Positions 1 through 41,094 of a stretch of 64,000 nt of DNA are shown piece after piece. The position numbers and the translations under genes were made by a program. Position 1 is the stretch's first letter. Every line of letters begins with the position of its first letter. Source of the stretch: Diphasiastrum complanatum (lineage: Eukaryota; Streptophyta; Lycopodiopsida; Lycopodiales; Lycopodiaceae); the NCBI GenBank assembly GCA_029204225.1, contig CM055092.1, positions 24,512,381 through 24,576,380 of the forward strand. Direction: 5' to 3'. The notes below the pieces were generated by a model. The model was given only the letters and a program-made list of their open reading frames with translations, was not told where the DNA came from and did not search any database.

Positions 1-1983
<1,983 letters not shown>

Positions 1984-5010: not shown

Positions 5011-5039
5011 GGGTCCTTGAAGGTACACACATATTGGCG

Positions 5040-5840
5040 ATCACGGGTGATGGAAGTGCGAGGTGGTGCCAGTTGGAAGCCATTGGGCAAGATAGCGGAC
5101 TTGCATTGGACGAGCTATGTGTGGTACATGCAAAAGGATGAAAAACGGGTCAATAATCACACTTTGGATGCTCTTGGTGAGTGGTGAGTGGTGAGTGTGA
5201 TGATTTTGGGGTTTTACAGTCGGTAAGTCAATTCTGATCAAGTCATTGTAGTTGTGGAGTAGTATATCAGGTTTGTCATCGTAGAGATACAGCTCAACTG
5301 CCAGTTTGGGTAAGTCAAGTCAATTTGCCATATCAGTATTGCATCAAGGATGCAGATTCCAGCGATGACAGGCTATAGATCGTTTGGTTTGGGCCATGGA
5401 AGATCTCACACGTTCACTAGGACGGATATTGGCATGCACCGTTATGTGAGGGACTTGATGGTGTCTTTTGAGTTCACATCTTAGTGTATTCTTAGGGAGT
5501 GGTTTGGAACCATTCACAGGAGCATCTTGGAGCTAGCTTGGGGGAATACAGGTGGGAAATACAGGGTAGATGCCCAAATCTTTGTGATCAGAGATGGCAT
5601 TGAAATACCCAGTAGGGATAACACTACAAGATGACATGGGATGATCATCAGGGGGCAGCTATTTTATACTGGACTTGAGTCATTGGCATAGACAGGACTT
5701 ACAGGTGGGATTCATGATGGAATCAAAACACTACAAACGCAAATGGACAAAGCGTGAAGCTTTGAGAGCCAGCTCTAGGTTGGAGAGTTGATGAAGATCA
5801 CACAGGGTGTGATCGGAGGGCCTTGTCACGGGAATTTAGA
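5040..5840 (+). repeat. U block of the U-R repeat, copy 1
   Basis: A unit of about 0.8 kb that recurs at 17250-18010(-) and, interrupted, at 24180-25400(+). In the other two copies its centre holds an open frame of 89-94 codons (SFGLGHGRSHRF, ILREWFGTIHRSSLELAW, FVIRDGIEI); in this copy that frame is interrupted by a TAG near 5485. I do not recognise the product. The left edge is fused to the CopA integrase at the sequence GGTCCTTGAAGGTACACACA in all three copies, so the CopA-U junction is itself part of the amplified unit. Confidence 0.65.
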
Positions 5841-6576
5841 TCTGAGTCAAAGTTTTATGTGGTTGTGCATTTGCTACGGTAAAACAAAGTAGTCATTTAT
5901 GATGATTGACTTGTCATTGTCTACTAGCTATCTATCTGGTGAGGGTGCAATCTTATGGTGGCAGTGAGATTTCATCAGGTTGAGCCTCAGCTGCTCATTT
6001 ATGTCAACTTTACAGGTTCGTACTTGTAAGTGTCTGATAGGATGTCAGCCTAGCTAGATGGAGGATGTAAGTCTCATGGTGGCAGTGGGATTTCCTCAGT
6101 TTGAGCCATGTCGCTCATGTGGTCCACTTGTGGTCAAGTTGGATTGGGGATGAGTCAGTTGGTCGAGAGTATGGTGGTAGACTCTCTGTATGAGCATTGT
6201 GGTTGCATGACACTTTGTGAGTCAAACCTGGTAATTTGTATATGTTATTATGCAGTGGTGATAAATATTCAAAATTTTCTTTGGCCTTGTTATGAATAGA
6301 TAATTTTTATCGTTATGTGGCTGCTAAAAATGCTTTTGATTCTCCTTTTCTATAGACAGGTTTTGCTTAGGAGCTCTAATCAGAGCAAATCTTCAGGTGA
6401 TGCGAAGCGAATCATTATCACTAAAGGTAGTGATGATACGTACAACACTATGCTTTTTTATCTCAAGATTTATAGAAAGCAAGATGTCACTAATAGTTGC
6501 TAAATCCAATCGTTGTTTATTTCCAATACGACCAAATTTTTTTCGTCTCCTTAACAATGTGCTGAAAATTCATATT

Positions 6577-6937
6577 GCCTTGAAGGTACTTGTCTTTCTC
6601 TTGATGTTCTCCTTGGCTTTTGGCTTGATGAAGGTCCATCATCGTCACCATCAAAAATAAAATCATTTTCATCAACATCAAGAATGTTAGTTCCATCCAC
6701 AGTTCCATCAATCATGTTTGAAATTTTTTTTGGAATGTTCCCCTCATAAAAAATGACATCTCTACCAACAATCACCTTGTTAGTAGAAGGAATGTAAACC
6801 TTGTAGGCTTTACTCACCTCACTATATCCAACAAAAATACCTTTGCTTGAAGATGGATCCTCCTTGGTCCTATAGTCAAGAGTAATGTTGACATAGCATA
6901 TGCATCCAAACGTTCTTAGAAAGTTGACACTTAGACT
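6577..6937 (-). pseudogene. CopA integrase-tail patch inside R copy 2
   Basis: About 360 bp of CopA pol on the minus strand (SVNFLRTFGCICYVNITLDY, GIFVGYSEVSKAYKVYIPST, then GTNILDVDENDFIFDGDDDG) sits where other R copies have about 280 bp including the NKAAIV exon. The R flanks on both sides are otherwise collinear with 32325-33775. There are no LTRs and no obvious target duplication, so this looks like a repair patch or template switch rather than transposition. Confidence 0.8.
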
Positions 6938-7412
6938 AGTCAACTTGCTTTCTTATTATCCAAGAAGGATCCAAGAAGATTGATTTCATAGGAAATTGTT
7001 GCAAGAAAAGCAAACTGTACTTTATGTTAGCTCTCAACATCAATAGGGATCTGAATCATACCTTGTTATCAAATGTTCTTCAAATAGTTATGTTTGTGTT
7101 TCTTTGCTTCGATTCTAGGTAATTGTGAGAAATGGTGAGAATTATTGAGCATGGTGATTCCATTAGGTTTAAGGAGTAAAATTTAGCACTACATGACTCC
7201 TATTGTGTATGTAAGCTAAGTGATAATTAGTTTAAGAAATCCTCAATTATTTGAGAGAGAGAGAGAGCGAGAGATCACATAGTGATTGAAGTCAATTTTA
7301 TTAATTCACATTTTAGATACCTAGCCTAAAAAAAAACCCTAACCTTAAAGATCCTAAATCTTCAATATCTCCCCGCTCTTTCAAATCTTCTCTCCTCTCA
7401 CGTTCTGCAACC

Positions 7413-7455
<43 letters not shown>

Positions 7456-7707
7456 GTCCTCTTAGTCTCTCAATCGCATTAACCTCTCTCTCTTTCTCAT
7501 CGCGTTTGTAACTGGGTTATTGCTTCAGATTACTACTGCCACCTCCCGCCTCTAAAACCCTGATCAATCAATAGCGTGGCAGCATATGTTCTTGATGATC
7601 GTTCAATCCAGCTCCAGAGTGAAGAGAAAATTATTTAGCGATTTGCAAGGAGTGTAGCAGCCGCTCCCCAGCATTTCAATTGTAAGCATCGAAGGCATCT
7701 TTGGTGC

Positions 7708-7709
<2 letters not shown>

Positions 7710-7774
<65 letters not shown>
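7710..7774. repeat. (CT)n microsatellite
   Basis: An uninterrupted CT run of about 65 bp at the outer edge of R copy 2. The homologous site near 33750-33770 has only about 20 bp, so length is variable between copies. Confidence 0.95.
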
Positions 7775-7778
<4 letters not shown>

Positions 7779-8329
7779 GAGCCGGGAAAGCAAATATGAA
7801 TCAGAATAAATCATACGCTTATCTGCAAACAAGATACATTAAAATGAATTAGAGAGTGTGTTTAATTTCCTCCTATCTCATCAAAGCAACCTTTCCCAAT
7901 CCACAAAAAGACACATTCTCCTCTCTCCATCTCTCAACTCCCTCTCTCAAACTCACATTCTTGTCTCTCGATCCATCGCTTGCGCGCACTCTGTGGACAG
8001 TTCGCTTTCCAGAAGTTTCTGAAAGCTCGTGTTCAGTCTCTCTAAAATGCACGTGTTTTCCTTTCATCCTCACTTGAACTGCCTTTCAACTGCCCATCAA
8101 ATACGTGGACCAATAAAATTTTAGAAAACCCATTTTGTCTAACTCGGGTGACATTCTATCTCATATGTTTGCTTCCACGCTAGCTCCAATTTTTCATACT
8201 TCATATCACAGTTAGCTAGTGCTGCTTCATTGTAAGTTTCAACTACAAATACTTTTTCTCAGGCAATCGCAATCCTCTACTTCGATTTTGCCGGTTATCT
8301 CTACGTGAGAGTGAAATTTACGGGCAGCT
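7775..8329 (+). other. Upstream region of AP2-like pseudogene 1
   Basis: This stretch has no convincing gene. The last 180 bp (from about 8145, CATTCTATCTCATATG) is shared with the sequence upstream of AP2-like pseudogene 2 (from 41752), so it was duplicated with that gene and is probably its 5' flank or leader. A CACGTG G-box at 8050-8055 and a CCAAT at 8110-8114 are present but occur by chance at such frequencies; they are noted only as possible promoter remnants. The open frames at 7856-8077(+) and 7873-8073(-) overlap each other and show nothing recognisable. Confidence 0.4.
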
Positions 8330-10496
8330 ATGGCAGGGAGGAGTAAGTATAAAGGTGTTGATCACAGAAAACGAACGGGAAGATGTGAAGCAAATATCTG
8401 GTATGGAAAGAAAATATGTTCCGCCGGATTACATGAATTCTTTGAAAAATAATTATTGTGAGAAATGGATGATATTTGTAAAGCTATTTACAGGTAAAGT
8501 CTCTTAGAACGAAAGTGATCTGTAGCTATGGCCTGAGCAAATTTGATTTGTTTTCAGTAAGATGTAGCATTTTTTATTTTCTTTACAAAGCTGCTTACAT
8601 ATGTTTGAAATGCAACCGGTTTATATGGTTTTTCATTTTCCAATAACAGGAGAAGAAAGGAGAAGAAAAAGCGACAAATGTTTTGGAAGAATGGCTAACC
8701 CAGGACAGCTCTCCATTGGTACGATTTTTGTGACAATGAATTTATGGATTGATACAACCTCATTAAAAAACAAGACCTCGAGGATGCTCGCAAATGACTT
8801 ATTCTTGATGCTAATGAGCGCCACTTTGCTTTGCAGGTGCCTATCATAATGAGATAGCAGTAGCCAGGTTTGTGTGAACTGGTGGCAGTTAACTGATTCT
8901 CAATGACTTTCTGGTTTATGAAATTACCATCCTAAATATCGTTCATAACTCCATTGGTCTGCTAATGTGTTAGAACTATTTTGTGGCTCAGGAATTATGA
9001 TAGGGCAGCAATTAAACTTGGTCACACCGAGAAACTTAACTTCCAACTATGAGTCTTAAATGCCACTAGTATGGTTAGAGTACAAAGTGTCGTCTACATT
9101 TAAAGTCAACTTTATTATATATAGTGGGTTATACAGCTACGTCACATTATAAAGCGCATTGCTCTCCAAATGTTTGAAGAAGGGTCTTTTGATTATAACG
9201 CGTGTTTAATCTTCCATATGTGAGAAATAAAAAGTGACAGTTTGTGGTTCCCTGGTTTGCAGTGGGAGAAATACGATGAAGACGACTTTTTTCATATAGT
9301 TCGGTACATGAGTCGGAAAAACCTTTCTTTGAGTTTTGTAGAAGTTGCAATTCTTCATGAACATTCACCTGAAAAGAAGACTAGTGGTCATGGTAGAAAA
9401 AGGTTGGAAATTTCAAGGCACATATATGTTATTATGCAGTGGTGACCAATAATCAAAATTTCCTTCTACCTTGTTTCGGGTAAAAATGATAATTTGCAAT
9501 GGTTCAGTGGCTTCTAAAAATGTTCTTGATTTTCATTTTCTGCAGACAGCTTTTGCTTCCGAGATCCAATCAGAGTAAATCTTCAGGTCATGCGAAGCGA
9601 ATTGTGTTTACTAAAGGTAGTGTTGATATGTGCAGTGTTTCATTTCAAGATTTATAGATAGCAAGATGTCATTAATAGTTGCCCAAATCTAATCATGTAT
9701 GTTTATTTGAGCTTAATTTCTAGTTGTTTGTTTCCAATAAGAGCAAATTGTCTCCATCTGCTTAACAATGTGCTGAAAACTCATATGTTCTTTTAGCAAC
9801 ACCCAACAAAGCAGCAATAGTACAAGAAGAATGGAAACTTGCTTATAGGGACCTATTTGGACCAGTAGATGATGTTGAGAAAGATGTTCCAACGACCAAA
9901 ACAATCAAGTTCACCTTTCTACATGAGCTTGCAAAATATTCCCTTGGAGGAGCTGGAGATGGTGAGAATTTTAAAAATCCCTTCTAGCCTAAAAGTATTG
10001 ATGCTTAAGATATTAGCCACTTCAATCCATGCTCTTTAAACTGTAATCATGTTTCTAGGCCATATATGTCTAGTCAACTCGCTTTATTATTATCCAAGAA
10101 GGATTGAATATGATTGCTTTCGAATGAAAATGTTGCAGGAAAAGGAAGCTGTACTTCATGCTAGTTCTCAACACCAATATGGTCTAAAGTACTAAGAACT
10201 TACATTCAATAGACTATACAAAACATTACTTGTTTAAATTCAATGTACTACATTCCTGTCCTCACGATGTTGGATTTTTTCTAGAAGCTTGGCAAATCAT
10301 ACCTTGTTATCAAATGCTCATAGCTCTTCAAATAGTTATATTTGTGTTACTTTGCTTCGATTCTAGATAATTGTGAGAAATGGTATTGAGCATGGTGATT
10401 CCATTAGGTTCAAGGAGTAATATTTAGCACTTAGCAGACATGACTCCTATTGTGCATGTATGCTAACAAATTAGTCTAAGAAACTCCAAATTATTT

Positions 10497-10555
<59 letters not shown>

Positions 10556-10655
10556 ACATAATTTATTAGTTGACATTTTAGATACCTTTGATTCAGTTGA
10601 TACACACACACACATACACTAATAAATATATAAATATATATAAACATAGAAAAGT

Positions 10656-10687
<32 letters not shown>

Positions 10688-10738
10688 TCAATTGTACTTC
10701 CCAGGATTGAATCTTGAAAGGAAAGAGCTAAATCCTAA
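8330..10738 (+). pseudogene. AP2/ERF-domain gene, degenerate copy 1
   Basis: Exon-like pieces with matching splice phases spell one AP2 DNA-binding domain. Exon 1 is 8330-8400 (M, then SKYKGVDHRKRTGR, ending at a GT donor). Exon 2 is 8650-8718. Exon 3 is only 31 nt, 8837-8867 (AYHNEIAVA). Exon 4 starts at 8992 (NYDRAAIKLGHTEKLNF). These give the YRG-type and RAYD-type elements of AP2 proteins, a nuclear transcription-factor family. Later pieces are 9262-9360 (EKYDEDDFFHIVRYMSRKN), about 9546-9610 (QLLLPRSNQSKSSG) and 9800-9960 (NKAAIVQEEWKLAYRDLFGP). Lesions: a 10-bp insertion shifts exon 2; 9 bp are lost in exon 4, which then meets a TAA; one extra A near 9940 shifts the last exon; the conserved Trp after TGR is Cys. 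I infer a dead gene copy. Subfamily is uncertain. Confidence 0.75.
10499..10686. repeat. (GA)n and (CA)n microsatellites downstream of AP2-like copy 1
   Basis: GA run at 10499-10552 and CA run at 10657-10686, with TA-rich spacer between. The same order occurs at 43908-44072(+) and, inverted, at 40840-41094, confirming that the whole 3' flank of the AP2-like gene was copied. Confidence 0.95.
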
Positions 10739-11333
10739 TTAAAAATTCCAACCCTATGTAGTGTTGTGTTTTCTTTTCTAGTGTCTCTCTATTTTTCGTT
10801 CTCGATGGTGCAATTATCCTCCAAAGTGCTTCTCGAAGTACTTGATCATCCTTACTAAAGCATCAGAGATAGAGATTTATTCAAATCCATATTGATAGAC
10901 TGTTGATATATTAAAAAATCTAGCAAAAGTTGATTGGGGCATCACACTAGCAGCATCTTGCCACCGGTCATGTTGACAAGCATACACTAGTGAGAGCCCA
11001 ATAGGTATACTTATACCCTCCAAGGCCCATGCACCACTAGTAGTGCACTGTGACACCTCACTGGACACCTCTGCAGTCTATTTGAGCCACATCATCTAGT
11101 TCCCCAATGACTCACTGATAGACCCATACAAATCCACCATCAAGTGTTTAGGCCTACAACCATTAATTATCACCATGTACACATAAGGGCCCTAATTCCC
11201 TTATAGTCACAATTAACTTATGGGTTGTTGGTCTACCGGTCCCTAGCGTGGACATGCTATCCGAGACCAGTCATGGACATGACACAAGTAGTAGCCAAAG
11301 AGATGCTACAAAAAGAAGAGTAACACGTGAAGC
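10739..11333. other. Gene-free junction region with a short D fragment
   Basis: The AP2 3' flank continues into the first 75 bp of repeat D (about 10862-10938) and then stops abruptly. From 10939 to 11333 there is unique-looking sequence leading to the next pseudogene. No coding similarity or RNA gene is visible. Confidence 0.5.
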
Positions 11334-14057
11334 ATGGGTCAACCAAAAAGTGATCTTTGGTCCTTGGATCATACAAAAATTGTAGCTGAGGGCTATATCT
11401 TGTTGGCATTCCCCTATGAGGCTATGGAATTTGAAGAGCTTGGAGATGAACATGTCGGTGTCATAATCTCCACAATGCATGCTAGCTTGGATAATAATTT
11501 AGCATGTCAAGATAGCAGCTTGGAGAACATGAATGTTCAACTTTTGAGATGGCCAATCAAACAAGTTACATTTGAAGATGGTAGTGAACTTTTAGATACA
11601 TCAGTCTTTGATGGTATAGAATGCCAAAATCAAGACGATATGCATGGTGAGAGAGGTGTCCATGAGATATTGAAAATTATGCAAGAAGATGTTGAGGGGC
11701 CAAAAGACTCTACAATATGTAAGAAAAAGATAAAATATAGAGTGGTCAATCGACAACTATCACAAAACAACAACATGTTGACATAGTCCAAAATTCATGA
11801 TCTTTTGTCCACGAAGAAAATCCATGAAGTTGCTACTAAAGATTGTTGTGATAAGTGTTGCTGCCAACATGTCAAGAGAAAACAAATAGAGGAAGCTCGA
11901 CGACAATATTGGAGTCAAACGTCATCAGATCGCATTACTTATGTTTGTGACATGTTGCTTACTTCACAAAAAAAAAGAAGGAAAGAAAAGAGCATTTTAT
12001 ATTACATTCGAGGGAGATTTGATCTATGCAAGGGCATGGTATATTATTCATGGAATACTAAAGGCTACAGATCACAGGTACAAAGCTGCATACGAACAAG
12101 GATCCAGAAAAGCATGCCATGGAAACACGCAAATTATTCGACGAGCTTGGGAGCATGTGGAGATGGCAAAGGCGATAATGCAACAATACGTTAATAACAA
12201 TGCTGAGCAAATGCCACACAAGAGTAAGACTACTTTTGATGGAGAAAGAGAGACACAGCAAATACTATCAAGTGTTTATAAACAACAAGACATATTGAGG
12301 GAAATAAACATGACACAAGTCTGGGATTATAAAACATATCACATTCTCCATTTAGTAGACTTCGTAAAATTGTATTCAAACAAGTGTCTCTTTCCAAATC
12401 TAGCCCATTTTTCAAAATATGATGTATGCACATCCTTGAAAGTGAAGCTAGAATCAACAAAGTTGTTGGAGAGCGAGCAAAAATATTCATGGAGAAAAGA
12501 AAACATATGCTTGCCCAAATGAGTTGTCGCAACTTGTACTATTTTTGGGTTGTGATCCTAGTAAGAACTTGTGCATTGTCCATTACAACATGGACTAGAT
12601 GAAGACATGCATACCATGACTAGAGCCACATCCAAAAATTTGAAGTCATGTCATGCAACTCTCCATATCTTTAACAGGAATGCTGACGCACGGACATGGA
12701 AGAGGTGCATATGGTCATTTTGCAATGGGATATTGGTCTTCTGATCCAAATTTTACAATTGGATCACTAGCACGATGTTTGAGACATTTAGAGCTTCCAA
12801 ATGAGGATAGAAAAGGTGATTTCAATTTTAGTAGTGTGCCACAACAATCCATTTTTGGAGGATTGTTGGTGAGACATGCATTTGATTTTCATCAACAAAT
12901 ATGAAACAGAGGAGAAAATTCATCAACAAAAAACACAGATACACTCATGAACATAAGCCATTCTTCGAGTCAAAATGGTCACTTTAAAGCTTTGCCAAGA
13001 ACTCTCTACCTACAACTTCATAATTGTGGTAGCGAGAACAAAAATAGATATTTGTTCACATTTCTCTCCCTTCTCACAACAAGGAACATATTTGAAATGA
13101 TACATCTTGGGTTCTTAATGGTGGGCCACACACATGAAGATGTTGATGCAATGTTTAGCAGACTATCGGAGAAGTTACAGACAGCTTGTGTTTTCACTTT
13201 TTCCCATTTGATGAATGCGTTCATTGAGAGCTCATGCCTTCATCCCAAACCATACTTAATGCAAGAAGTACCAAATTTCTAATCTTTTATTGAAAATTAT
13301 CTATGTGATGCAGGAGACACATTGGTTGGCCACAAAAAACCTCTCCAATTTCGCTTTTTTGTTAGAGATGGCATTCCTGTCATGCAATACATGATGAATC
13401 CCACAATGAAGATGTGGAAACCACAAGATGGAATACAATTATGGAAGAAAGACACAAATGGTTGTCCAATGTTGCCCAAAGGATATCTCCCTGCATTACC
13501 ACTTTTGTCGACCCTTAAGGATCAAAGTATGGTTATTGATGGAATAAATAAGCATGTTTCTTTTTGGAAGAAATATATGGAACACAAAAATGTCAATCCA
13601 AATTATAGGGAATTCATTTCGCCTATAATTGCTTATTGGGAGAACATTATCAACATTTTAAATTCAGATGAAAACATTCAGAGTTATGTGAATATGATGG
13701 ATGGTTTTTGGCCCAGGATGGGATGGATGGATGCTAATACAAACAACCCAACTAGCATGATAGAAGATGAAGAAGATGAATATGAAGAACACTATTGTGG
13801 TCCATTGAAAGATAAACCTAGGGTGCCATTCAAGAATCATATTGATGTGCATAAAGATCAATTTGTGCTGGTACGTCCCAATGACAAGATGTATCCAATT
13901 TGGCTAGGTGTTGCACTTTCAGACGTAAACCAACAAAAGACATCACCAAACTTCATGAAAGTGCTTCTTCAATATTGGGCTCCCATTTATTCGGAAAGAT
14001 ATAAGGATTGTTGGACGAAGCAACCCTTCCGATCCACAACGTTGGTCTATACAATTT
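11334..14057 (+). pseudogene. DUF7869-like (transposase-like) gene, degenerate
   Basis: Successive open frames in three phases line up with a family I recall as DUF7869 (eukaryotic, RNase H-fold-like, possibly transposon-derived). Landmarks: a Cys-rich start (CCDKCCCQH, then EEARRQYWSQTSSDR) near 11835-11935; after a shift at an A-run near 11966, ARAWYIIHGI and GNTQIIRRAWEH (12027-12155), then EQMPHKSKT; SKYDVCTSLKVKLEST near 12415; CRNLYYFW at 12525; GAYGHFAMGYWSSDPNFTIG near 12695; LQLHNCGSENKNRY (13010-13051) and FLMVGHTHEDVDAMFSRL (13112-13165), the signature block; FRFFVRDGIPVMQY (13351) and KDQFVLVRPND (13855). Stops at 11784, about 12592 and 13280 and several frameshifts prove it is broken. 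LQLHN has His where I recall Asp. The 3' end is cut by GypG. An alternative is a relic of an unclassified DNA transposon; no terminal repeats were found. Confidence 0.7.
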
Positions 14058-16355
14058 ACTTCAATTCCTGGTCAATTTGGTCTATACAATTTTAGACTCC
14101 CTCCGACGCATTAAGCATTGTCCACAATGGACATTTCTCAAATAAACATTTAAAATTTTTGGATACTCTTGGAAGAATTCTTCTTCCATCCATCTTTTTT
14201 TTGAGTCTTTTCTTTTCAAGTTTTAGGAGAACTAGTTCTCCTTCATCGTACTTGATTGCCCTCCGACACATATTTGCACTTTTTTGTTGTTTCTGTTGTG
14301 CATTTGCCATGGATTGTTGAACCTTTGAAAAGGTGTCTTGATAGTCCTACACAAATTCATCTGAGGCAAATATCTTTTCTTTAGTCCTTAATAGATGAGG
14401 CACAATTGGTTTTCCATACATTACTTCAAAAGGTGCTTTACCAGTAGAAGAATGAATGGTGTTATTGTAAGCAAATTCTAGAATAGGAAGATAGTGTTCC
14501 CATTGAGTCTTCTGATCACTTACATAATTTATCAACAAGTCTATGATGGTTCGATTAGTAATTTCACTTTGACCATCAGTCTGGGGGTGAAATAATGAAG
14601 AAAATTTAAGGGTTGTCCCCAGATTATCAAAAAGGGCTCTCCAAAAGATGCTAGTAAATCTTGATTCCTGATCCGACACTATACTTTTGGATAGTCCATG
14701 CGACCAAAAGGTACCACTAAACATTCATAAAGGCCAAAGTTAGTTCTGGAAGCAGTTTTATGGACATCTTCGGGTGCTACTCTGATTTGGTGGTATCCAC
14801 TTGTCAAATCAATTCTACTAAAAATGCAAGATCCATTTATCCTATCCATAATGTCATCTATTCTTGGAATAGGAAACCGGTTCTTAGTTGTATTCTTGTT
14901 TAAAGCACGATAGTCCACACACATCCTAAAACTCCCATCTTTCTTTTGTACCAAAAGTACAGGAGAGCAACAGGGGGAGTTACTGGGTTTTATAAGACCT
15001 TTCTCTAACAAATCATTAATTTGTTTAGAAATTTCTTCTTGTTGAGAATGGCTTACCCTATAAGGGAGGTCTATTGGGTATGGAACTATTGGGTAGGATA
15101 ATGTCTATCGTATGATCTTCAGGTCTTTCAGAGGGTAAGGATAACATCATCATCCATACTTTGAACAAACAACAAATAAGAAAATACTGCTTTCTTTAGT
15201 ACCTTTGATACCTGAATATGGCTTCCCAAAGGGATTATTTCGCCACTCTGTCCAGCATGCACACTAACATCTTTCCAGAGGGTTGTGCATTTTGTGCCAA
15301 GGCATGCCTAAGATTATATCTACTCCCTGTAAAGGACCTACCATGAATTCTATAGGCTCATAGTAATCGGAGATTTGAAGCTTAGTTTTTCCAATTACAG
15401 AGTAAATGTTTGCATCACCATCAACAAAAGCACCTTTAGCCTTAAGCATAGATTCAGAGAAGGAACCAACTCCAATCTCTTGTGCAAGCTTAAAAGAGAT
15501 GAAATTATGAGAGGAGCCTGCATCAAAGAGAATTAAACAGAGTTTGTTATGGACTTGTGCCCATGTCTTGAGGAGATCGTGGTTTTGAGTGTCTTAAATG
15601 CTTTGTACGGCAACTTGCTTCCCTTTGTCTGCACTTAAAGCTTTGGTATCTTTGAGTGGACATTTGAAAAAGAGGTGTCCATTTTCCCCACACTTGAAGC
15701 ATCTTCCTTTCTTGCGATAGGCCTGCACTTGTTCTTTGGAAAGGCGTTGAGTCTTCTCTTTTGGAGTTTGAGTGGTGGGATGTTCCTTCCTTTTGTTTCC
15801 GCTTCCATTTCGATGATTATCCTGTAGTTCAATTCTGGTAGCATAATGTATGTCTTGTTCCAAAATATCACCTTGTACTAGATCTAAGCCATATTGTATA
15901 CTTCTATGCAAACCCGAATAGAACTTTCTTTTCTGTTCTTTCTTGGAAATGGAATGTAAAGTCTGAACTTTCAAAAGCAACTCCCAAAATCTTTTTGCAT
16001 ACTCAACTACCTTCTCATTTTGTTTTTGACTAAAGATGTCCCATGCAACTAAAGTATCTTTTTTATATTCTTTTGGCAAAAAGTGGGCTTTAATTTGCTT
16101 TTTAAAGCTATGCCAAGTAGAAGCAGTTTCGTGATTAGATTCCATAGCTGCCCACCATAGAGATGCATACTTATCTAGATGTAACATTGCAAATCAAATC
16201 TTGGAATGATTTGAGTATCTGCTTTTCTCAAAGAAAGTATCAAGATTTCGAATCCAGACAAGCAAACTCTCTTCATTGCTACTATCTCCATCAAACTTAG
16301 AAAACTTAAAAAGTTTATTATCAATCTTAGCAAACCTCCTTTTCCTAGATCTAGT
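14058..16355 (-). pseudogene. GypG gypsy retrotransposon fragment 1, with internal deletion
   Basis: Minus strand, 5' to 3': gag (16187-15594; TASTWHSFKKQIKAHFLPKE, ending in the zinc knuckle CFKCGENGHLFFKC), an aspartic-protease region with its DARSS-like motif around 15530-15260, RT start (15011-14710; LEKGLIKPSNSPCCSPVLLV, FRMCVDYRALNKNT, IDLTSGYHQIRVAP). At about 14703 the frame jumps from RT (VVPFG) directly into the integrase core (LSKSIVSDQESRF), deleting about 1.4 kb that is present in the second copy (about 54100-55500). The integrase then runs to FEVMYGKPIVPHLLRTKEKI. Stops occur between domains. The YxDD box, RNase H and the integrase zinc finger are gone, so it is inactive. Its right edge abuts R at about 16356. 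Confidence 0.85.
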
Positions 16356-17240
16356 AGAGGATATTTACAAGTGCGAGTAGAAAGGGAAACTTGATTATTC
16401 TAGTGGTTGGAATAACATTCTCAACATCTTCTATTGGTTCAAATAGGTCCCTATAAGCGTGTTTGCATTATTCTTGTACTACTACTGCTTTGTTGGATGT
16501 TGCTAAAAAACATATGAATTTTCAGCACATTGTTAAGGAGATGGAAAAAATATGGTCGTATTGGAAACAAACAACGATTGGATTTTAGCAACTATTAGTG
16601 ACATCTTGCTTTCTATAAATCTTGAGATGAAAAAGCATAGTGTTGTACGTATCATCACTACCTTTAGCAATAACGATTCGCTTCGCATCACCTGAAGATT
16701 CGCTCTGATTAGAGCTCCTAAGCAAAAGCTGTCTATAGAAAACGAGAATCAAAAGCATTTTTAGCAGCCACAGAAACATGAAAATTATCTATTTATAACA
16801 AGGCCAAAGAAAATTTTGAATATTTACCACCACTGCATAATAACACATACAAACCACCAGGTTTGACTCACAAAGTGTCATGCAACCACAATGCTCATAC
16901 AGAGAGTCTACCACTATACTCTCGACCAACTGACTCGTCCCCAATCCAACTTGACCACAAGTGGACCACATGAACGACATGGCTCAAACTAAGGAGATCC
17001 CACTGCCACCATGAGACTTACATCCTCCATCTAGCTAGGCTAACATCCTATCAGACACTTACAAGTACGAACCTATAAAGCTAACATAAATGAGCAGCTG
17101 AGGAAATCTTACTGCCACCATAAGATTGCACCCTCACCAGATAGATAGCTAGTAGACAATGACAAGTCAATCAGCATAAATGACTACTTTGTTTTACCAT
17201 ACCAAATGCACAACCACATAAAACGCCGACTCAGATCTAA
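16356..17240 (-). repeat. Chimeric U-R repeat, copy 3 (R part)
   Basis: Minus-strand copy of the R block, containing the NKAAIV-type exon (about 16365-16510) with the shared TAA nonsense codon, the QLLLRSSNQSESSG exon-like stretch (about 16670-16740), and the fused non-AP2 part to about 17240. It corresponds to 5841-6560 in inverted orientation. Confidence 0.75.
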
Positions 17241-17249
17241 ATTCCCGTG

Positions 17250-18010
17250 AGAAGGCCCTCCGATCACACTCTGTGCGATCTCCATCAGCTCTCCAACCTA
17301 GAGCTAGCTCTCAAAGCTTCACGCTTTGTCCGTTTGTGTTTGCAGTGTTTTGATTCCATCATGAATCCCACCTGTAAGTCATGTCCATGCCAATGACTCA
17401 AGTCTAATATGAAATAGCTGCCCCTTGATGATCATCCCATGTCATCTTGTAGTGTTATCCCTACCAGGTATTTCAATGCCATCTCTGATAACAAAGGTTT
17501 GGGCATCTACCCTGCAGTGTCCACCTGTAGTCCCCCAAGCTAGCTCCAAGCTGCTCCTGTGAATGGTTCCAAACCACTCCCTAAGAATACACTGAAATGT
17601 GAACTCCAAAGCCACCATCAAGTCCCTCACATGACGGTGCATGCCAATATCCGTCCTAGTGAACCTGTGAGATCTCCCATGGCCCAAACCAAACGATCTA
17701 CATCCTGTCATCCCTGATGCAATACTGATATGGTAAATTGACTTGACTTACCCAAACTGGCAGTTGAACTGTATCTCTCCGATGACAAACCTGATATACT
17801 ACTCCACAGCTACAATGACTTGATCAAAATTGAGTTATCGATTGTAAAACCACGAAATCATCACACTCACCACTCACCACTCACCAAGAGCATCTAAAGT
17901 GTGATTATTGACCCGTTTTTCATCCTGTGCATGTCCCACACATAGCTCGTCCAGTGCAAGTCCGCTATCTTGCCCAATGGCTTCCAACTGGCACCACCTC
18001 ACACTTCCAT
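17250..18010 (-). repeat. U block of the U-R repeat, copy 2, with open frame 17442-17711
   Basis: Inverted copy of 5040-5840. The minus-strand frame at 17711-17442 gives 89 residues (SFGLGHGRSHRFTRTDIGMH, ILREWFGTIHRSSLELAWG, FVIRDGIEIPGRDNTTR). It is the most open version of the unknown U frame. I recognise no domain. Similar length and end (DNTTR stop) at 24921-25205 suggest a once-coding segment, but it could also be chance in young repeats. Confidence 0.6.
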
Positions 18011-18029
18011 CACCCTTGATCGTCAATAT

Positions 18030-19834
18030 GTGTGTACATTCAAGATAGCCAATATGTGTGTACCTTCAAGGACCCCACAGCAAAATGGAGTGGCTGAAAG
18101 GAAGAATAAGGCTTTATGTAAAAGTGCTTAAGCTAAGATGTTAAGTGCTAATATTGAAAAACCATTTTGGGATCAAGCTTTGTTGTGTGCCAATTTCTTG
18201 TGCAATAGGTGGCCGAGTGCTTTTTGGATGGAAGGACACCTTTTGAGATACTATTCAAGAGGAGGCCGAGTGTCAACTTTCTAAGAACGTTTGGATGCAT
18301 ATGCTATGTCAACATTACTCTTGATGATAGGACCAAGTAGGAACCATCTTCAAGAAGTGGTATTTTTGTTGGATATAGTGAGGTGAGTAAAGCCTACAAG
18401 GTTTACATTCCTTCTACTAACAAGGTGATTGTTGGTAGAGATGTCATTTTTTATGAGGGGAACATTCCAAAAGTTTTTTCAAACATGATTGATGGAAGTG
18501 TGGATGGAACTAACATTCTTGATGTTGACGAAAATGATCCTATTTTTTATGGTGATGATGATGGACCTTCATCAAGCCAAAAGCCAAGGAGAACATCACG
18601 AGAAAGACAAGTACCTTCAAGGATCACATATGATCAAAAGGGTAAGCAAGTAGCTTCTGGAAATTATGTTGCCTCTTTGGATGAGCCTACAAGTGTAGAT
18701 CAAGCAAGGAAATAAGAGGAGTGGATCCAAGCAATGGATCTTGAGTATCGAACTCTTATGAAGAGTGAAAGATCTTTTGGAGGATCTTCTTGTGTACATG
18801 GAGCTATGCATGTGGATGGATGTTATCTTGCTGTAAAATCAAGTATTGGATCTAGAAGACAAATTGTTCAATGACTTTAATGGTCAAGTTGAAGATTAAG
18901 AGGTTGATCTCAAAGCGCTTCAACTAGTCAAAAGGGAAGTTGGCAATTTGGAACTAGTCAAGAGCATCAAAGGAGAGGTAATTGGCAAAGGTGTTATGGA
19001 TATGATTTTACAGTATATTGAAGACTCAAGTAAGCTCAAAGGAGTAGCAAGGAAGTGTTTTTCAAGTTTACTTTACTTTTTCTATCTCATGTTTGAGCAA
19101 TTTTATGTGGATGTGTGCAAATCGTCAAGATATGGTAAAACTAGCTACATTGGTGAGCATTGTTTTGATGTTGGATTTGTACTAGAATTCTTGGCTGGTT
19201 TTGCTGATGGAAATGAAGCTATTGGAGGTTCATTATGTCACTCATTCATGTCCAAGTCATCAAGGCTTGATGGAATCTTATGGCAAGATGGAGATGGAGG
19301 CTCATTTGTGGAGTATCATGGTGGATACAAGATAACAAAGAGCAAAGGAGGAGGAAACATGCAAGCAAAAGTTGATCACTGTTTGTTTGCTGTAATTTTT
19401 CCATAGAGTTCAAGATTGATAGCATGGTGGAATCATTTCATTTACGTCCTATTTCATTCTTCATGTTACATGTAAAATTAATGTAAGAAATAGTGAAGCA
19501 TCCCAAGTGGACATTATTCTCTATATCAATTATGGTTGTTTCTATTTTGAGCATTAAATAATCATTGAAAGATCTATTCTTGGGAAGAAGATCATTCTTA
19601 TGATGGATCAAAGTTCTATCGTCAAAAACTATGCTAGGAGCAAGCATATTGAGGTGCAACAACACTTTGTTATGGAAAAAGTCATTGCAAAGGAGGTGGA
19701 GCTTCAACATGTGTCTTCAAGGGAATGTGTGGCTGATATCTTCAGCAAAGCATTGGGAAAGGACTTGTTCATGAACCATAGGACTTCACTTGGAGTGCTA
19801 TCAAAGTGTATGCTAAAACTAGTTGAAGAGGGAG
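18030..19834 (+). pseudogene. CopA copia pol remnant with RT region replaced, copy 2
   Basis: Starts at the CopA-U junction (about 18060, TTCAAGGACCCCACAGCAAA), which codes the integrase motif PQQNGVAERKNK carrying the catalytic Glu. Frameshifts follow. From 18383 an open frame covers the integrase C-terminus and spacer (SKAYKVYIPSTNKVIVGRDV, through DEPTSVDQARK, then TAA). The foreign segment (RSFGGSSCVHGAM, LVKSIKGEVIGKGVMDMIL, SYIGEHCFDVGFVLEFLAGF) replaces RT between about 18770 and 19440. The RNase H tail returns at 19600-19839 (MDQSSIVKNYARSKHIEVQQ, VADIFSKALGKDLF). Polypurine tract GAAGAGGGAG at 19825-19834 precedes the LTR. It is the inverted counterpart of 3222-5010. Confidence 0.85.
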
Positions 19835-20402
19835 TGTGAAAGATTCAACTAGTTTCATCATATTTGCTATATTTTCATATTTGGCATATTGAGGCCAAAA
19901 CTTGTTTTAGAATTAGAGATTGACTTGTCAAAGTTCATTAGTCAAAATGTCATTAGAATAAACACTTTTTGAAAGTGTGGGAAAGGTAGAATGCGAGTTT
20001 GAGTAGATTCAAATTTGAATAATTGGGTATATTGAATCTAGACCCAAAAATAGTAGGGTTTACATTTTGGAGGGAAATCCAAGTGGCCAAATAGGGTTTG
20101 GACCTGCTATAAAAGAATGTAACTCATGGAGAGAGCTATCTTCTCTCTTCTCTATCTCATTTCATGCTTATACATGGTTCTCTTGGGTTCTACTATTCAT
20201 TGGTGCACTATCTTGGTGATTGCTTGCAATTCTATGTGTATAATGGTCATTCATTGCTATTTTTGGTTTCACACATGTGAAATACAGCAGCTCGCTAGTT
20301 TTGCACAGAGAAAACAACAATACTTTATCATTTCATTCAAGTTTGATCAAGTTCTATTTGTGTTTGCATCTCATTTTATGTGTAGATGCTGATTTTTCTA
20401 CG
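19835..20402 (+). repeat. CopA 3' LTR
   Basis: Begins TGTGAAAGATTCAACTAG immediately after the polypurine tract. It aligns with 3221-2600 on the other strand. The end is lost where CopB begins at about 20403. Confidence 0.75.
20108..20115 (+). promoter_or_regulatory. TATA box of CopA LTR
   Basis: TATAAAAG lies about 275 bp into the LTR, the expected place for a U3 promoter. The matching elements are at about 2945(-) and 50510(-), so the box is conserved between LTR copies. Confidence 0.5.
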
Positions 20403-21790
20403 TTGGTAAGGATCTTATCACTCCTATCAATAATTTTGCATTGATCAAATTCGAATTCTACCTTATGACCTAAATCTGTAATTCTACTTACTGATAACAG
20501 ATTTGTAGAGAGTTTAGAAACATATAAGACTTTTGATAGTAATTTGAATAGATCATGCTGGAATTGCAATCTTATAGTACCTTCACCTTCAATAGTGTGA
20601 GTACCTTCACCGTCAATATTATTTTATGAATTTTTCTTGAAACTGAAAACCAAAATTTATGCACTTATTACCAACCTTCTGTATATATACACTCCATCAT
20701 GTCTAAACAAGTTTAGTCCTTTGAAAATTATTTTAGTTCTACTGACACCATCTGAAATCCTTCACACTTTATTGAATAGAACAGAGGTTTTCAAGGCCTG
20801 ACTAGACTCAGAATAACAGTGTGCCAATCTCTATAAGTAACTCCGCCTCTTGCCGAGTGCAAGGATCTTATCACACCTATCAATAATTTTGCATTGATCA
20901 AATTCAAATTCTACCTTATGACTTAAATTTGTAATTCTACTTACTGATAACAGATTTATAGAGAGTTTAGAAACATATAAGTCTTTTAATAGTAATTTGA
21001 ATTGATCATGATGGAATCGCGATCTTATAGTACCTTCACCTTCAATAGTGTGAGTACTATTGTCACCAAGATTAACACATTTCTTCATGTTGTAAGGCGT
21101 GTAGGAATTGAAGATCTCACATTGATTGGTCATGTGTTGAGTTCTTCCATAATAAAAAAACCATGAATCATCCAAAAGTGCGCTTTGATCTTTGACCATG
21201 AATGCACATTCGTCCACTTCGACCTGGGAGATGATGAAACTGTGTTTGCTTATTGATCAAGTTGCTTGGCTACATTCTTCGCTTGGAGAATTCGACAATC
21301 CTTAATCTCATGGTTATTACACTTGCAATATCTACAAAATACCTTCTTCTTTGATTATGATCTGATGATTGTGCTTGACTTTGAGTCTGTTTCTGATTCG
21401 TTGTAGTCTTCTTGGAGCTTTTCTACTTCTATCGCTTAGAGCCTTTGTTGACATATAGAGCCAAAGAGGAGGAAGTAGTCGTAGTGTCTCGACTTCTTCG
21501 ATTATCTTCTACAACAACATAGTGATAACTCTAGTAAGAGTTAAACCTGTGTGTGTTGATATGATCATCACTTAGTTTTCATATATGTAGAGAGCAAGCT
21601 TGAAAGCAATGTCATAATTGCATCTTGATCATCTATGACTGATCCGACAGCGGCCATCTGTTGCAAGAGATTCTTAATCTGGTTAATGTGTATATGAAGA
21701 GAATCACTAGTAGACATTTTGAATGTGAAGAATTTATTTCGTAGATGTAACTTAGTAGTTACGTCCTTCACATCATATAGTGAGTTCAAA
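20403..21790 (-). pseudogene. CopB copia remnant, with duplicated end
   Basis: Minus strand: gag (21790-21568; SLYDVKDVTTKLHLRNKFF, SSLLSTYMKT), a disrupted zinc-knuckle region, then the protease region at 21217-20831 (LLDDSWFFYYGRTQHMTNQ, NLLSVSRITNLSHKVEFEF). The protease catalytic triplet Asp-Ser/Thr-Gly is replaced by Tyr-Tyr-Gly. A second copy of the protease tail lies at 20569-20404, separated by about 130 bp of repeat-D end (about 20630-20760), so a D-CopB junction was duplicated. The gag frame is opened by an ATG in antisense R sequence at 21858. Integrase and RT are absent. Confidence 0.8.
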
Positions 21791-23014
21791 ATGTGCAGGC
21801 CATGGTTGAGGACCTGATTTGGTGACCAGTGGTGTAGCAGTGGATCTACAGGTGGCACAGGTGTTGGTACGATAGGATACGACTTATGTGCAGGCCTTGG
21901 TCATGTATTTGACGCTTTATCATTTGTGTTGATTTGCGTGAGTGTGTGTGGGCTTACATGTCGCCATGTCATGGGAGTTTAGATCTGAGTCGGAGTTTTA
22001 TGTGGTTGTGCATTTGCTATAGTAAAACAAAGTAGTCATTTATGCTGATTGACTTGTCATTATCTACTAGCTATATATCTGATGAGGGTGAAATCTTGTG
22101 GTGGCAGTAAGATTTCCTCAGGTTGAGCCTCAGTTGCGCATTTATGTCAACTTTACAGGTTTGTACTTGTAAGTGTCTGATAGGATGTCATCCTAGCTAG
22201 ATGGAGGATGTAAGCCTCATGGTGGCAGTGGGATTTCCTCAGTTTGAGCCATGTCGCTCATGTGTTCCACTTGTGGTCAAGTTGGATTGGGGACGAGTCA
22301 GTTGGTCGAGAGTATGGTGGTAGACTCTCTGTATGAGCATTGTGGTTGCATGATACTTTGTGAGTCAAACCTGGTGGTTTGTATATGTTATTATGCAGTG
22401 GTGATAAATATTCAAAAATTCCTTTGGCCTTGTTATGAATAGATAATCTCCATGGTTCCGTGGCTGCTAAAAATGTTTTTGATTCTCATTTTCTGTAGAC
22501 AACTTTTGCTTAGGAGCTCCAATCAGAGCGTAATCTTTAGGTGATGAGAAGCAAATCGTAATCACTAAAGGTAGTGATGATACTTATAACACTATGCTTT
22601 TTATCTCAAGATTTATAGAAATCAACATGTCATTAATAGTTGCTAAATTCCAATCATTGTTTGTTTCCAATACGACCAAATTTTTTCCATCTCCTTAACA
22701 ATGTGCTGAAAATTCATATGTTTTCTTAGCTACATCCAACAAAGCAGTAGTAGTAAACGAATAACGCAAACACACTTATAGGGACCTATTTGGACCAGTA
22801 GAAGATGTTGAGAATGTTATTCCAACCACTAGAAAAATCAAGTTTCCCTTTCTACTCACACTTGTAAATATTCTCTTGGAAGAGCTGGAGATGGTGAGAA
22901 TTTTGAAAATCCCTTCTACCCCAAGAGTATTGATTTTTAAGATATTAGCCACAGAAATCCATCCTCTTTAAATTGTAATCATGTTTCTAGGCCATTTATG
23001 TGTAGTCAAACCAA
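21791..23014 (+). repeat. Chimeric U-R repeat, copy 4 (R part)
   Basis: Plus-strand R block from GTGCAGGCCATGG (21796) through the non-AP2 part and the AP2 3' exons (NKAAIV-type exon 22725-22895 with the shared TAA) to about 23014, where CopA begins. It is the inverted counterpart of 1983-1. Confidence 0.75.
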
Positions 23015-23029
23015 GTTTAATTGATGCCC

Positions 23030-24125
23030 TATCATAATTCATGAGCCACACACACCAATGTAGCTAGTTTTACCATATCTTGACAATTTGCACACATCCA
23101 CATGAAATTGCTCAAACATGATATAGAAAAAGTAAAGTAAACTTGAACCTTGCTACTCCTTTGACCTTACTTGAGTCTTCAATATGCTGTAAAATCATAT
23201 CCATAACACCTTTGCCAATTACCACTCCTTTGATGCTCTTGACTAGCTCCAAATTGCCAACTTCCCTTTTGACTAGTTGAAGCGCTTTGAGATCAACCTC
23301 TTGATCTTTAACTTGACCATTAAAGTCATTGAACAAAATTTGTATTCCAGATCCAATACTTGATTTTATAGCAAGATAACATCCATCCACTTGCATAGCT
23401 CCATGTACACAAGAAGATCTTCCAAAAGATCTTTCACTCTTCATAAGAGTTCGATACTCAAGATTCATTGCTTGGATCCACTCCTCTTCTTTCCTTGCTT
23501 GATCTACACTTGTAGGCTCATCCAAAGAGGCAACATAGTTTCCAGAAACTACTTGCTTACCCTTTTGATCATATGTGAGCCTTGAAGGTACTTGTCTTTC
23601 TAGTGATGTTCTCCTTGGCTTTTGGCTTGATGAAGGTCCATCATCATCACCATAAAAAATAGGATCATTTTCATCAACATCAAGAATGTTAGTTCCATCC
23701 ACACTTCCATCAATCATGTTTGAAAAAACTTTTGGAATGTTCCCTCATAAAAAATGACATTTCTACCAACAATCACCTTGTTAGTAGAAGGAATGTAAAC
23801 CTTGTAGGCTTTACTCACCTCACTATATCCAACAAAAATACCTCTGCTTGAAGATGGATCCTCCTTGGCTCCTATCATCAAGAGTAATGTTGACATAGCA
23901 TATGCATCCAAAGGTTCTTAGAAAGTTGACACTCGGCCTCCTCTTGAATAGTATCTCAAAAGGTGTCCTTCCATCCAAAATAGCACTCGGCCACCTATTG
24001 CACAAGAAATTGGCACACAACAAAGCTTGATCCCAAAATGGTTTTTGAAGATTAGCACTTAACATCATAGCTTAAGCACTTTCACCTAAAGTCTTATTCT
24101 TCCTTTCAGCCACTCCATTTTGTTG
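23030..24125 (-). pseudogene. CopA copia pol remnant with RT region replaced, copy 3
   Basis: Minus strand from 24125: PQQNG/AERKNK region, integrase tail (KPFWDQALLCANFLCNRWPS), a frameshift at about 23870, then KAYKVYIPSTNKVIVGRNVI. The frame at 23717-23112 (201 codons) runs without a stop from the integrase C-terminal spacer straight through the replacement junction (LMKSE then RSFGRSSCVHGAMQV) into the foreign segment, ending at the same point (FLYHV stop) as the homologous frame at 48084-47329. The copy is truncated before the RNase H tail. It is fused to R at about 23020. Confidence 0.85.
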
Positions 24126-24212
24126 TGGGGTCCTTGAAGGTACACACATATTGGCTAGCTTGAAGGTACACACATATTGGTGCTCGCGGGTGATGGAAGT
24201 GTGAGGTGGTGC

Positions 24213-24772
24213 TAGGATCTGATAGAGGGGGTGAATATAAATTTGATGATTTTGAAGACTTTTGCAAAGAACATGGCATTAAAAGACAATTCACACAGTC
24301 ACACATGCCGCATAGTAATGGTGTAGCTGAACGGAAAAACAGAACTATTATGGAAAGTGCACACTCCATGATGAAGCAAATGGGCTTGACCGATTCACTT
24401 TGGTCGGAAGCGTGCAGTGCGGCAATGTTCTTGCAAAATAGGAGCCCTACAGTTGCGGTTCCAAATGTGACTCCTAAAGAAGCATTTACTGGAATAAAGC
24501 CAAAAATCGACAAATTTTGTGTCATTGGATGTAAGGCCTATGTACATGTGCCAAAGGAGGAGCAAAAGAAACTGGATGCCAAAGCAATCAAGTGTATCTT
24601 TGTCGGTTATGATGAAAGAACAAAAGCTTACAGGTGTTTTGATCCTGTAATGAACAAGATTCACATTAGCAAAGATGTGATCTTTGATGAAACGCATAGG
24701 TATGAAGATGAAGACCATGCAAAAGGTGAAAGCATCAAGAGACTTCCCACAATTCTGGAGGAAGAAAATGAT
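24213..24772 (+). pseudogene. CopE integrase patch (about 560 bp) inside U
   Basis: An open frame of 200 codons beginning near LGSDRGGEYKFDDFEDF and including PHSNGVAERKNRTIMESAHS (integrase Asp and Glu) and KCIFVGYDERTKAYR. It is nearly identical over its length to the integrase of CopE at 61190-60640(-). It has no start, LTR or polypurine tract. It replaces about 125 bp of U (compare 5080-5205). Left edge GGTGC and right edge GATGATTTTG show microhomology with CopE, and the frame then reads on into U by accident (FVVLQSVSQF). Confidence 0.9.
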
Positions 24773-25400
24773 GATTTTGTGGTTTTACAGTCAGTAAGTC
24801 AATTCTAATCAAGTCATTGTAGTTGTGGAGCAGTGTATCAAGTTTGTCATCGGAGAGATACATTTCAACTGCCAGTTTGGGTAAGTCAAGTCAATTTGTC
24901 ATATCAGTGTTGCATCAAGGATGCAGATTTCAGGGATGACAGGTCGTAGATCGTTTGGTTTGGGCCATGGAAGATCTCACAGGTTCACTTGGATGAATAT
25001 TGGCATGCACGATCATGTGAGGGACTTGCTGGTGGCTTTGGAGTTCACATCTCAGTGTATTCTTAGGGAATGGTTTGGAACCATTCACAGGAGTAGCTTG
25101 GAGCTAGCTTGGGCGAATACAGGTGGGCACTACAGGGTAGATGCCCAAATATTTGTGATCAGAGATGGCATTGAAATACTTGGTAGGGATAACACTACAC
25201 GATGACATGGGATGACCATCAGGGGGCAACTATTTCATACTGGACTTGAGTCATAGGCATGGACATGACTTATATGTGGGATTCATGATGGAATGAAAAC
25301 ACTGCAAAATGCAAATGGACAAAGTGTGAAGCTTTGAGAGCTAGCTCTAGGTTGGAGAGCTGATGGAGATCACACGGGGTGTGATCAGAGGGCAAAAACT
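24773..25400 (+). repeat. U block, copy 3, with open frame 24921-25205
   Basis: Continues U after the CopE patch. The 94-codon frame (MQISGMTGRRSFGLGHGRS, ILREWFGTIHRSSLELAWAN, FVIRDGIEILGRDNTTR) parallels 17711-17442. Unknown product; no domain recognised. Confidence 0.6.
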
Positions 25401-27168: not shown

Positions 27169-27181
27169 TCCTCCCCTCGTT
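27169..27181 (-). promoter_or_regulatory. GypH polypurine tract
   Basis: AACGAGGGGAGGA on the minus strand, directly abutting the 3' LTR start. This is where second-strand DNA synthesis primes in LTR retrotransposons. Confidence 0.85.
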
Positions 27182-27409
27182 TGAAAAAGCTGATGTCCTT
27201 ATCAAGGCCAAACTAGACCTAGGACGTATGGCACGGGCTTAATTCACCGGCCTTTAAAACTTTGAATTACAAAATACATTGGCAGTAGCATAGGAAAAGT
27301 GTAGATAAAGTTCACTTACGTAAAACCTGTGTAAAGCTGCAAGTGATTTATTGGCAAACTTAAGAAAAATACCGGGAAGTTCCTTGAACTTCAGAATGGC
27401 CATGAATGT

Positions 27410-27787: not shown

Positions 27788-27829
27788 TGGGTTGATCTTC
27801 TTGGTGACATAATATGGCCCCGCATAAGG

Positions 27830-29215: not shown

Positions 29216-29227
29216 TTTCTTTGAAAA

Positions 29228-30688: not shown

Positions 30689-30699
30689 AAATGTAAGCT

Positions 30700-31387: not shown

Positions 31388-31399
31388 GCTCTGATACCA
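31388..31399 (-). promoter_or_regulatory. GypH primer-binding site (initiator-Met tRNA)
   Basis: TGGTATCAGAGC on the minus strand, two bases inside the 5' LTR. It is complementary to the 3' end of plant initiator methionine tRNA, the usual primer for gypsy and copia elements. Confidence 0.9.
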
Positions 31400-31401
31400 C
31401 A

Positions 31402-40839: not shown

Positions 40840-41094
<255 letters not shown>

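Follow-up and report, generated by a model that had tools for sequence, protein, structure and literature searches.

The window analysed here comprises 64,000 nucleotides of Diphasiastrum complanatum (C1:24.51-24.58 Mb, in a genome of 1.74 Gb), and a full reading covered the surrounding 266 kb (C1:24.34-24.606 Mb), which form one end of a larger cluster. The window contains several copies of an AP2-like gene. Copy G1 occupies 8148..10937 (+) and ends, at 10937/10938, at a segmental-duplication boundary; copy G2 (41748..44323, +) is without the sequence corresponding to G1 9447-9612 and adjoins an AP2-like 3' half that is inverted with respect to it (40588..41748, -). Two short AP2-like fragments (34099-34273 and 34850-35196) are found in tandem units at 34099..35196 (+).

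The gene is AP2-like and probably degenerate, and G1 is probably a pseudogene. The best score of a hand-spliced peptide against the Pfam AP2 domain was 30.7 bits, below the gathering cut-off of 33.3, and the exon alone reached 24.5 bits in the Pfam comparison; among 96 candidate protein relatives of the peptide, none attained an E-value of 0.001. Diversity at codon positions 1, 2 and 3 was 0.047, 0.035 and 0.054 in exon 1 (12 copies) and 0.059, 0.037 and 0.043 in exon 6 (17 copies). A clearly constrained gene was rejected, diversity dipping slightly at codon position 2 only. Most reading frames of the AP2-like copies are open.

A second class of structure, the R blocks, joins the 3' half of this gene (M', representing G1 9423-10588) to a different sequence on its left (L). 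The sequence-only reading had counted six such blocks in the window, and all six are there, at revised coordinates. Copy A (1-1983, -) consists of repeat (1399-1983), M' (~420-1398) and 5' flank (1-420). Copy B (5820-7774, +) starts with L (5820..6238), followed by M' in two portions, 6239..6575 (homologous to G1 9423-9786) and 6936..7318 (homologous to G1 10070-10588), between which 356 bp of a Copia-derived repeat (Z; 6577..6932, +) form a patch that replaces part of M'. In copies C (16356-17256, -) and D (21793-23009, +), M' is truncated. Copy E (25666-26260 and 32320-33770, +) is split: its repeat part (Y, X and L) spans 24769..26260 (+), and the remaining L, M' and spacer occupy 32320..33770 (+), stopping at a segmental-duplication boundary at 33770. 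Copy F (57399..58823, +; block 57728-58823) contains repeat from 57399 and M' at 58382-58823. The R copies are 90.9-95.5% identical among themselves and, over the shared part, 81.0-86.2% identical to G1 and G2. Altogether, 24 R copies were examined, 14 in the 266-kb stretch and ten fetched from elsewhere.

Three features proposed from the sequence alone, namely a constant AP2 junction, a common stop codon and the amplification of a single fusion that was already dead, are borne out. All six blocks share one entry point into the gene, G1 ~9423 (TATATGTTATTATGCAGTGG), with a 2-base shift in E-type copies; only 1 bp of sequence is shared at the founding junction. Throughout the 266-kb stretch, the L blocks that reach the junction run straight into M' (14/14). 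Within C1:24.34-24.606 Mb, the TAA, which had been noted in every R copy of the window that keeps the NKAAIV exon, is present in 12/12 matched R-type exons versus 0/11 gene-type exons (matches with up to 5 substitutions and no indels), and it is carried by all 22 R copies in which the exon was found among the 24 examined. The exon was not found in the remaining two, B and c24452, which have the same Z patch at its position (the Z piece of B recurs at C1:24451647-24452333). One of the gene-type copies cited earlier as lacking the TAA, that at 41742, does not bear on the matter: its homology begins at G1 9842 and stops short of that codon. The identical junction, together with the identical stop wherever the exon is found, supports the conclusion that one already-dead fusion was amplified.

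The sequence on the left, previously described as unrelated to the gene, represents part of a dispersed repeat. Genome-wide, the core of this repeat was found at 653 sites, and at 1,226 sites the repeat is intact through the point at which R is fused to the gene. Six out of six dispersed copies read past this point; four have a common right end ~580-600 bp beyond it and two diverge earlier. The right part of the repeat, with one copy as the query, has no match inside the 266-kb stretch, where the query matches over 53 bp only, beyond the repeat's right end. Frames, ends and target-site duplications (TSDs) led to no class assignment: the longest frame in the repeat pieces has 115 aa, the left ends differ between the two copies read, and of the two dispersed copies tested for TSDs, that on C9 has no common word of at least 6 letters and that on C10 shares only AATTTC, which is located in the repeat's own end. 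No match was obtained in Rfam at the gathering threshold. A 129-aa frame on C9 falls outside the repeat.

The outer ends vary among the six R copies. The left limit of R is not an end, as the repeat continues via Y/X (24769-25900) and at 57399-57728. An element terminus on the right was likewise rejected: E ends at the segmental-duplication boundary 33770, and the right part of B (~7320-7774) is not carrier sequence but runs collinear with 5' flanking DNA of the gene copy that comes next. This flank, comprising the spacer and the CT-rich sequence (RR and following) of G1 at 7320..8147 (+), is collinear in other copies and by this collinearity may be the native promoter of the AP2-like gene. 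In 14/24 R copies (7/14 in the 266-kb stretch and 7/10 of those fetched elsewhere), M' leads into gene 5' sequence of matching orientation, some of it present only as fragments; 13 of these copies do so via the common spacer. The other ten stop short of the gene: in seven the truncation falls inside M' (C, C', D, D', F, L033 and L035), two (E and c24398) are interrupted beyond the spacer or flank, and in L036 no spacer is seen over ~960 bp. Conversely, M' precedes all seven spacer blocks with a full start in the 266-kb stretch; for an eighth, which starts at 63, no neighbour lies closer than 300 bp. A, B and E have the right M' junction in common.

Much of this architecture is shared through segmental duplication, with 215,493 of the 254,620 non-N bases of the 266-kb stretch being duplicated within it. 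Copies C, D and E are contained in a 22.8-kb segment (10938..33770, +) that duplicates C1:24457919-24479283 in five pieces at 97.8-99.3% identity, and A-B (771-6575) duplicates D-C (23009-16512) in inverted orientation, in three pieces at 92.8-94.1%; an independent origin of the six R copies was therefore rejected. The split of E is due to one Gypsy LTR element (26261..32319, -; TSD GGTAG). The sister copy of E, E', ~66 kb away, has the Gypsy at the identical nucleotide, with both borders identical and within a 21-23-kb duplicate, and the right border is at the same point in c24394. Both this later nested insertion and the collinear flanks that the copies have in common beyond R are as expected of local segmental duplication.

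On the genome-wide scale, a 37-base junction pattern yielded 68 matches and its reversed control none, so that the count is far above chance. The sequence-only reading had named purely local duplication, with no copies elsewhere in the genome, as the finding that would speak against its interpretation. The distribution comes close to this: of at least 68 fusion sites, 34 lie in the C1 cluster (C1:24.36-25.38 Mb), a further 33 are distributed over seven small contigs of 56-192 kb that are unplaced on chromosomes, and one is on C2. Apart from the latter, no large contig contains the fusion beyond the C1 cluster, and the C2 copy, which has the same derived structure as the copy on C74, is read as a segmental duplicate.

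In addition to duplications, the window contains templated patches, of which four were recognized. Besides the Z patch in B, these are a 41-bp inverted patch (23010..23050, -) that matches G1 8982-9022 at 95%, a 51-bp patch (57048..57098, -) with 96% identity to G2 43050-43100, and a 553-bp internal Copia piece (24216..24768, +) with 99% identity to 60623-61188. The last forms a before/after pair with E', which retains the 117-bp spacer that the Copia piece replaces in E; ~6 letters are common at each join. It has the features of a break-repair filler: an internal piece of a nearby element, no target duplication, and deletion with microhomology. Shared letters at the joins, together with deletion, were seen in some of the patches.

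Since the fusion, one C2 site apart, shows no dispersal over the large contigs, the repeat is intact elsewhere and the sequence on the right is gene 5' flank, R is very probably a 5'-truncated copy of the gene beside a truncated repeat, multiplied by segmental duplication with no capturing carrier. The retained introns indicate copying at the DNA level, and multiplication of a gene fusion as a passenger of a ~1-Mb duplicated cluster makes the mechanism appear ordinary. R lies head-to-tail with another AP2-like copy, immediately upstream of it, and with the 5' half missing, the 3' half abuts the interior of a common dispersed repeat piece. For the origin of this arrangement we infer either tandem duplication of the gene and one deletion, or a break repaired by copying in a 3' half. 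The dead fusion with its stop very probably then rode as a passenger in blocks comprising repeat, 3' half, 5' flank, gene and downstream units (S, Q), amplified by direct and inverted segmental duplication inside the ~1-Mb cluster, and later break repair could have introduced short templated patches and truncations, giving the copies their differing ends. An allele in which the upstream gene copy is intact was not seen among the copies examined.

Within this explanation of R as a truncated gene copy, the patch variant, in which a break between L and the spacer was filled with the 1.17-kb 3' half of a nearby gene copy, is tenable but not the probable course. The four patches of the window and the right M' junction common to A, B and E are in its favour; yet 1.17 kb exceeds every one of these patches, no allele examined has L joined directly to the spacer, and a tandem copy accounts equally for the head-to-tail order with the gene. 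A simple insertion of the repeat into an upstream gene copy, with later loss of that copy's 5' half, is unlikely. The repeat does sit directly against the gene's 3' half, but the junction is not a repeat end, as the continuation of the dispersed copies demonstrates, and in the layout of the 266 kb no gene 5' half lies beside the far side of the repeat in the R orientation. Transduplication, the interpretation originally advanced, in which the repeat or a Helitron- or Pack-MULE-like element captured the 3' half and moved the copies, is very improbable: the single junction, the retained introns and the dispersed repeat on the left would suit it, but the fusion was found only in the C1 cluster, on the small contigs and at the one C2 site, the repeat occurs uninterrupted without the fragment, the junction is internal to a repeat whose remainder has no match in the 266 kb, gene and not element sequence lies on the other flank, the outer ends differ, and E and E' were duplicated together with their nested Gypsy.

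For R as a passenger of duplication, the wider message is that a local duplication cluster can mimic gene capture by a transposon, with one junction, many copies and a repeat at the border. Three genome-wide checks part the two: the dispersal of the junction, the continuation of the repeat without the gene, and later insertions held in common. The ~1-Mb cluster of many AP2-like copies, probably pseudogenes, would make a useful natural archive of patches left by break repair, at least one of them with its before and after states preserved; it opens no long-standing question to new testing. There is only a slim chance that the cluster amplifies actively as an array of ~25-kb units, in which 10937|10938, where the 3' end of G1 meets the start of the 22.8-kb duplicate, would be a head-to-tail junction, possibly derived from an extrachromosomal circle, and inverted AP2-like pairs such as 41067-41708 / 43299-43935 would feed hairpin small RNAs acting on AP2 genes elsewhere.

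With Helitron and Pack-MULE transduplication, as described in PMC13317346, R shares a multi-copy gene fragment with introns beside a repeat; unlike there, no element carrying the fragment was identified, and the repeat is dispersed without it. In wheat, gene movement by filler DNA during double-strand-break repair has been reported (PMC3445842), where gene pieces were likewise copied as filler and pseudogenes and fragments are among the moved genes; those genes are at non-collinear places and tied to transposon insertion, whereas local duplication dominates in R. At maize p2/p1, according to PMC2686159, adjacent gene copies were joined by break repair that deleted one 3' end and the next 5' end, with short filler DNA copied from nearby sequence, and a duplicated, probably dead gene copy with 91.2% identity is also described. 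The maize product is a hybrid of paralogues presented as a new functional gene, whereas R is a dead 3' half set against a repeat and present in at least 68 copies.

The window corresponds to C1:24,512,381-24,576,380, and its Copia, Gypsy and AP2-like sequences suggest a land-plant source. Self-comparison of the window revealed six R blocks (copies A-F), in each of which a left sequence, L, is joined to M', the 3' half of an AP2-like gene, at one point, equivalent to ~9423 in the AP2-like gene copy G1 (8148-10937). Identity is 90.9-95.5% among R copies and 81.0-86.2% between R and G1 or the second gene copy, G2, and small deletions relative to the gene are common to all six. A TAA after VQE, or variants of VQE, is present in 12/12 matched R-type exons versus 0/11 gene-type exons of the 266-kb stretch C1:24.34-24.606 Mb, and in all 22 R copies with the exon found among the 24 examined. 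The sequence-only reading, that six blocks share one AP2-like junction and an R-specific stop and that one already-dead fusion was amplified, is borne out by the common junction and by the common stop wherever the exon survives. At the founding junction, 1 bp of sequence is in common. Several gene fragments (R, the G2 deletion, the 34850 and 34099 fragments and a 51-bp patch) break near two apparent exon/intron borders of G1, at 9431-9449 and 9605-9613, which may be coincidence.

The right side of R is gene flank: right of M' (~7320-7774), the sequence leads through a (CT)n tract to the 5' flank and the gene. The order from this spacer to the gene is collinear in B/G1, c24395, c24478, c24490 (with a deletion) and c24368 (from part-way). 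In c24451 collinearity begins at the CT tract, where R copy E diverges; copy A carries an internal deletion, and c24397 breaks off before the gene. Throughout the 266-kb stretch, M' directly follows L in all 14 L blocks reaching the junction, and R-type M' precedes 7/7 spacer blocks with a full start; within 300 bp of a further block, which starts at spacer position 63, there is no neighbour. Eight of the 14 R copies in this stretch reach the spacer and seven the gene 5' sequence (six via the spacer, 24356 directly), and five are truncated within M'. In seven of ten R copies from elsewhere, the spacer leads on to gene 5' sequence, which in three (L030, L034, L038) is present only in fragments; two show an F-like truncation, and in one no spacer was found within the ~960 bp examined. 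Since gene flank lies right of M', R reads as the truncated upstream partner of a head-to-tail pair. It may have originated from a tandem gene copy by deletion, or from a 1.17-kb patch.

Duplication is extensive in the region: 215,493 of the 254,620 non-N bases of the 266-kb stretch are internally duplicated. The segment carrying A and B (771-6575) is an inverted duplicate of that carrying D and C (23009-16512; pieces 92.8-94.1% identical), and 10938-33770, with C, D and E inside, is a 22.8-kb duplicate of C1:24457919-24479283 (five pieces, 97.8-99.3%), the two edges of which are the apparent "ends" of G1 and R copy E. Copy E is split by a minus-strand Gypsy LTR element (26261-32319; LTRs 26262-27168 and 31403-32319, 92.6% alike), and the sister copy E', ~66 kb away, shares the insertion (C1:24472838-24477814) at the identical nucleotide with the same target-site duplication (TSD), GGTAG; in c24394 the right Gypsy border lies at the identical point. 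Copies of units G, S, Q, Z, Y, X and the spacer have median identities of 88-95%, also the range of R, and R is therefore not special; the mechanism of its multiplication looks ordinary. At 10937/10938, the 3' end of G1 abuts the start of the 22.8-kb duplicate, and in the source the matching gene copy follows the block; this looks like the head-to-tail junction of a ~25-kb unit. Six S units of ~0.5-0.9 kb each lie in a row, in one orientation, at C1:24494528-24503382 (L025, L009). The highest identity among listed pairs of at least 3 kb, 99.5%, belongs to a 3.75-kb pair (C1:24348881-24352630 and 24370403-24374156), the first copy of which starts after 8,880 N.

In the whole genome (1.7447 Gb, 5,176 contigs), a 37-base junction pattern allowing up to 3 mismatches has at least 68 sites, against 0 for the reversed control; this is a lower bound, the pattern detecting 11 of the 14 R junctions of the 266-kb stretch and missing three of E type. 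Thirty-four sites fall in C1:24,356,645-25,382,098, 33 on the small, unplaced contigs C33, C38, C48, C74, C128, C942 and C1971 (56-192 kb), and a sole C2 site is at C2:1,404,712. For a 39-base core of L, 653 sites were counted (control 0). Among these, 94 exact matches are listed: 16 belong to the C1 cluster, 50 to large contigs but outside that cluster, 19 to contigs that carry the junction and 9 to other small contigs. All six chosen repeat copies (C3, C5, C8, C9, C10, C12) continue beyond the R junction point, four to a common right end ~580-600 bp past it, and two diverge after ~60-200 bp. R thus contains a truncated, internally broken piece of this repeat, of which the C10 copy, at least 3.37 kb long, takes in the window's repeat pieces Y, X and F-left as well as L. 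The repeat's right part, with the C9 copy as query, has no match in the 266-kb stretch, where 53-bp matches represent sequence past its right end. Among the exact matches listed (C1 to the start of C6), no unbroken repeat lies in C1:24.35-25.38 Mb, and the nearest to the cluster is at 24,265,071. Variable left ends and a common right end would fit a LINE-like element; neither a tail nor a TSD was found. One dispersed copy (L041, C5:20239900-20242100) has its left part inverted. The proposal that a mobile carrier captured and spread the AP2-like fragment is rejected: the repeat is dispersed without it, unbroken across the junction point at 1,226 sites (control 0), the fusion was found only in the C1 cluster, on seven small contigs and at one C2 site, and the right side of M' is gene flank.

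"AP2-like" is a fair but weak label for the gene: the hand-spliced G2 peptide scores 30.7 bits against Pfam AP2, under the cut-off of 33.3, and a protein search with the AP2-like peptide found no relative. The exons are mostly open, and codon-position diversity dips only slightly, at position 2 (12 and 17 copies), hence no good evidence of constraint. A gene-derived query gave at least 44 genome matches (40 of 270 candidates scored); besides C1:24.36-25.38 Mb, they are on C128, C48, C74, C33, C38, C3648, C2 (1.37 Mb) and C24. Two inverted 3' halves, 41067-41708 and 43299-43935 (94.9% alike, ~1.6 kb between), could, if transcribed, be a candidate source of hairpin RNA.

The scale is moderately interesting, with a ~1-Mb cluster and at least 68 fusion copies including those on unplaced contigs. 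Within the window, breakpoints are filled by short pieces of neighbouring sequence in four patches: 553 bp of Copia interior (24216-24768) for 117 bp that E' retains, with ~6 letters common at each join; an inverted 41-bp gene patch (23010-23050); a 51-bp gene patch (57048-57098); and, in R copy B, 356 bp of unit Z in place of part of M'. The Copia patch, absent from E', is 99% like the inner part of the Copia element at 59158-62688, which has a long pol frame. Unequal crossing over, together with break repair, is reported as the origin of large changes in wheat (PMC6097286), and the patches of the window resemble the templated break repair described in maize (PMC2686159) and wheat (PMC3445842).
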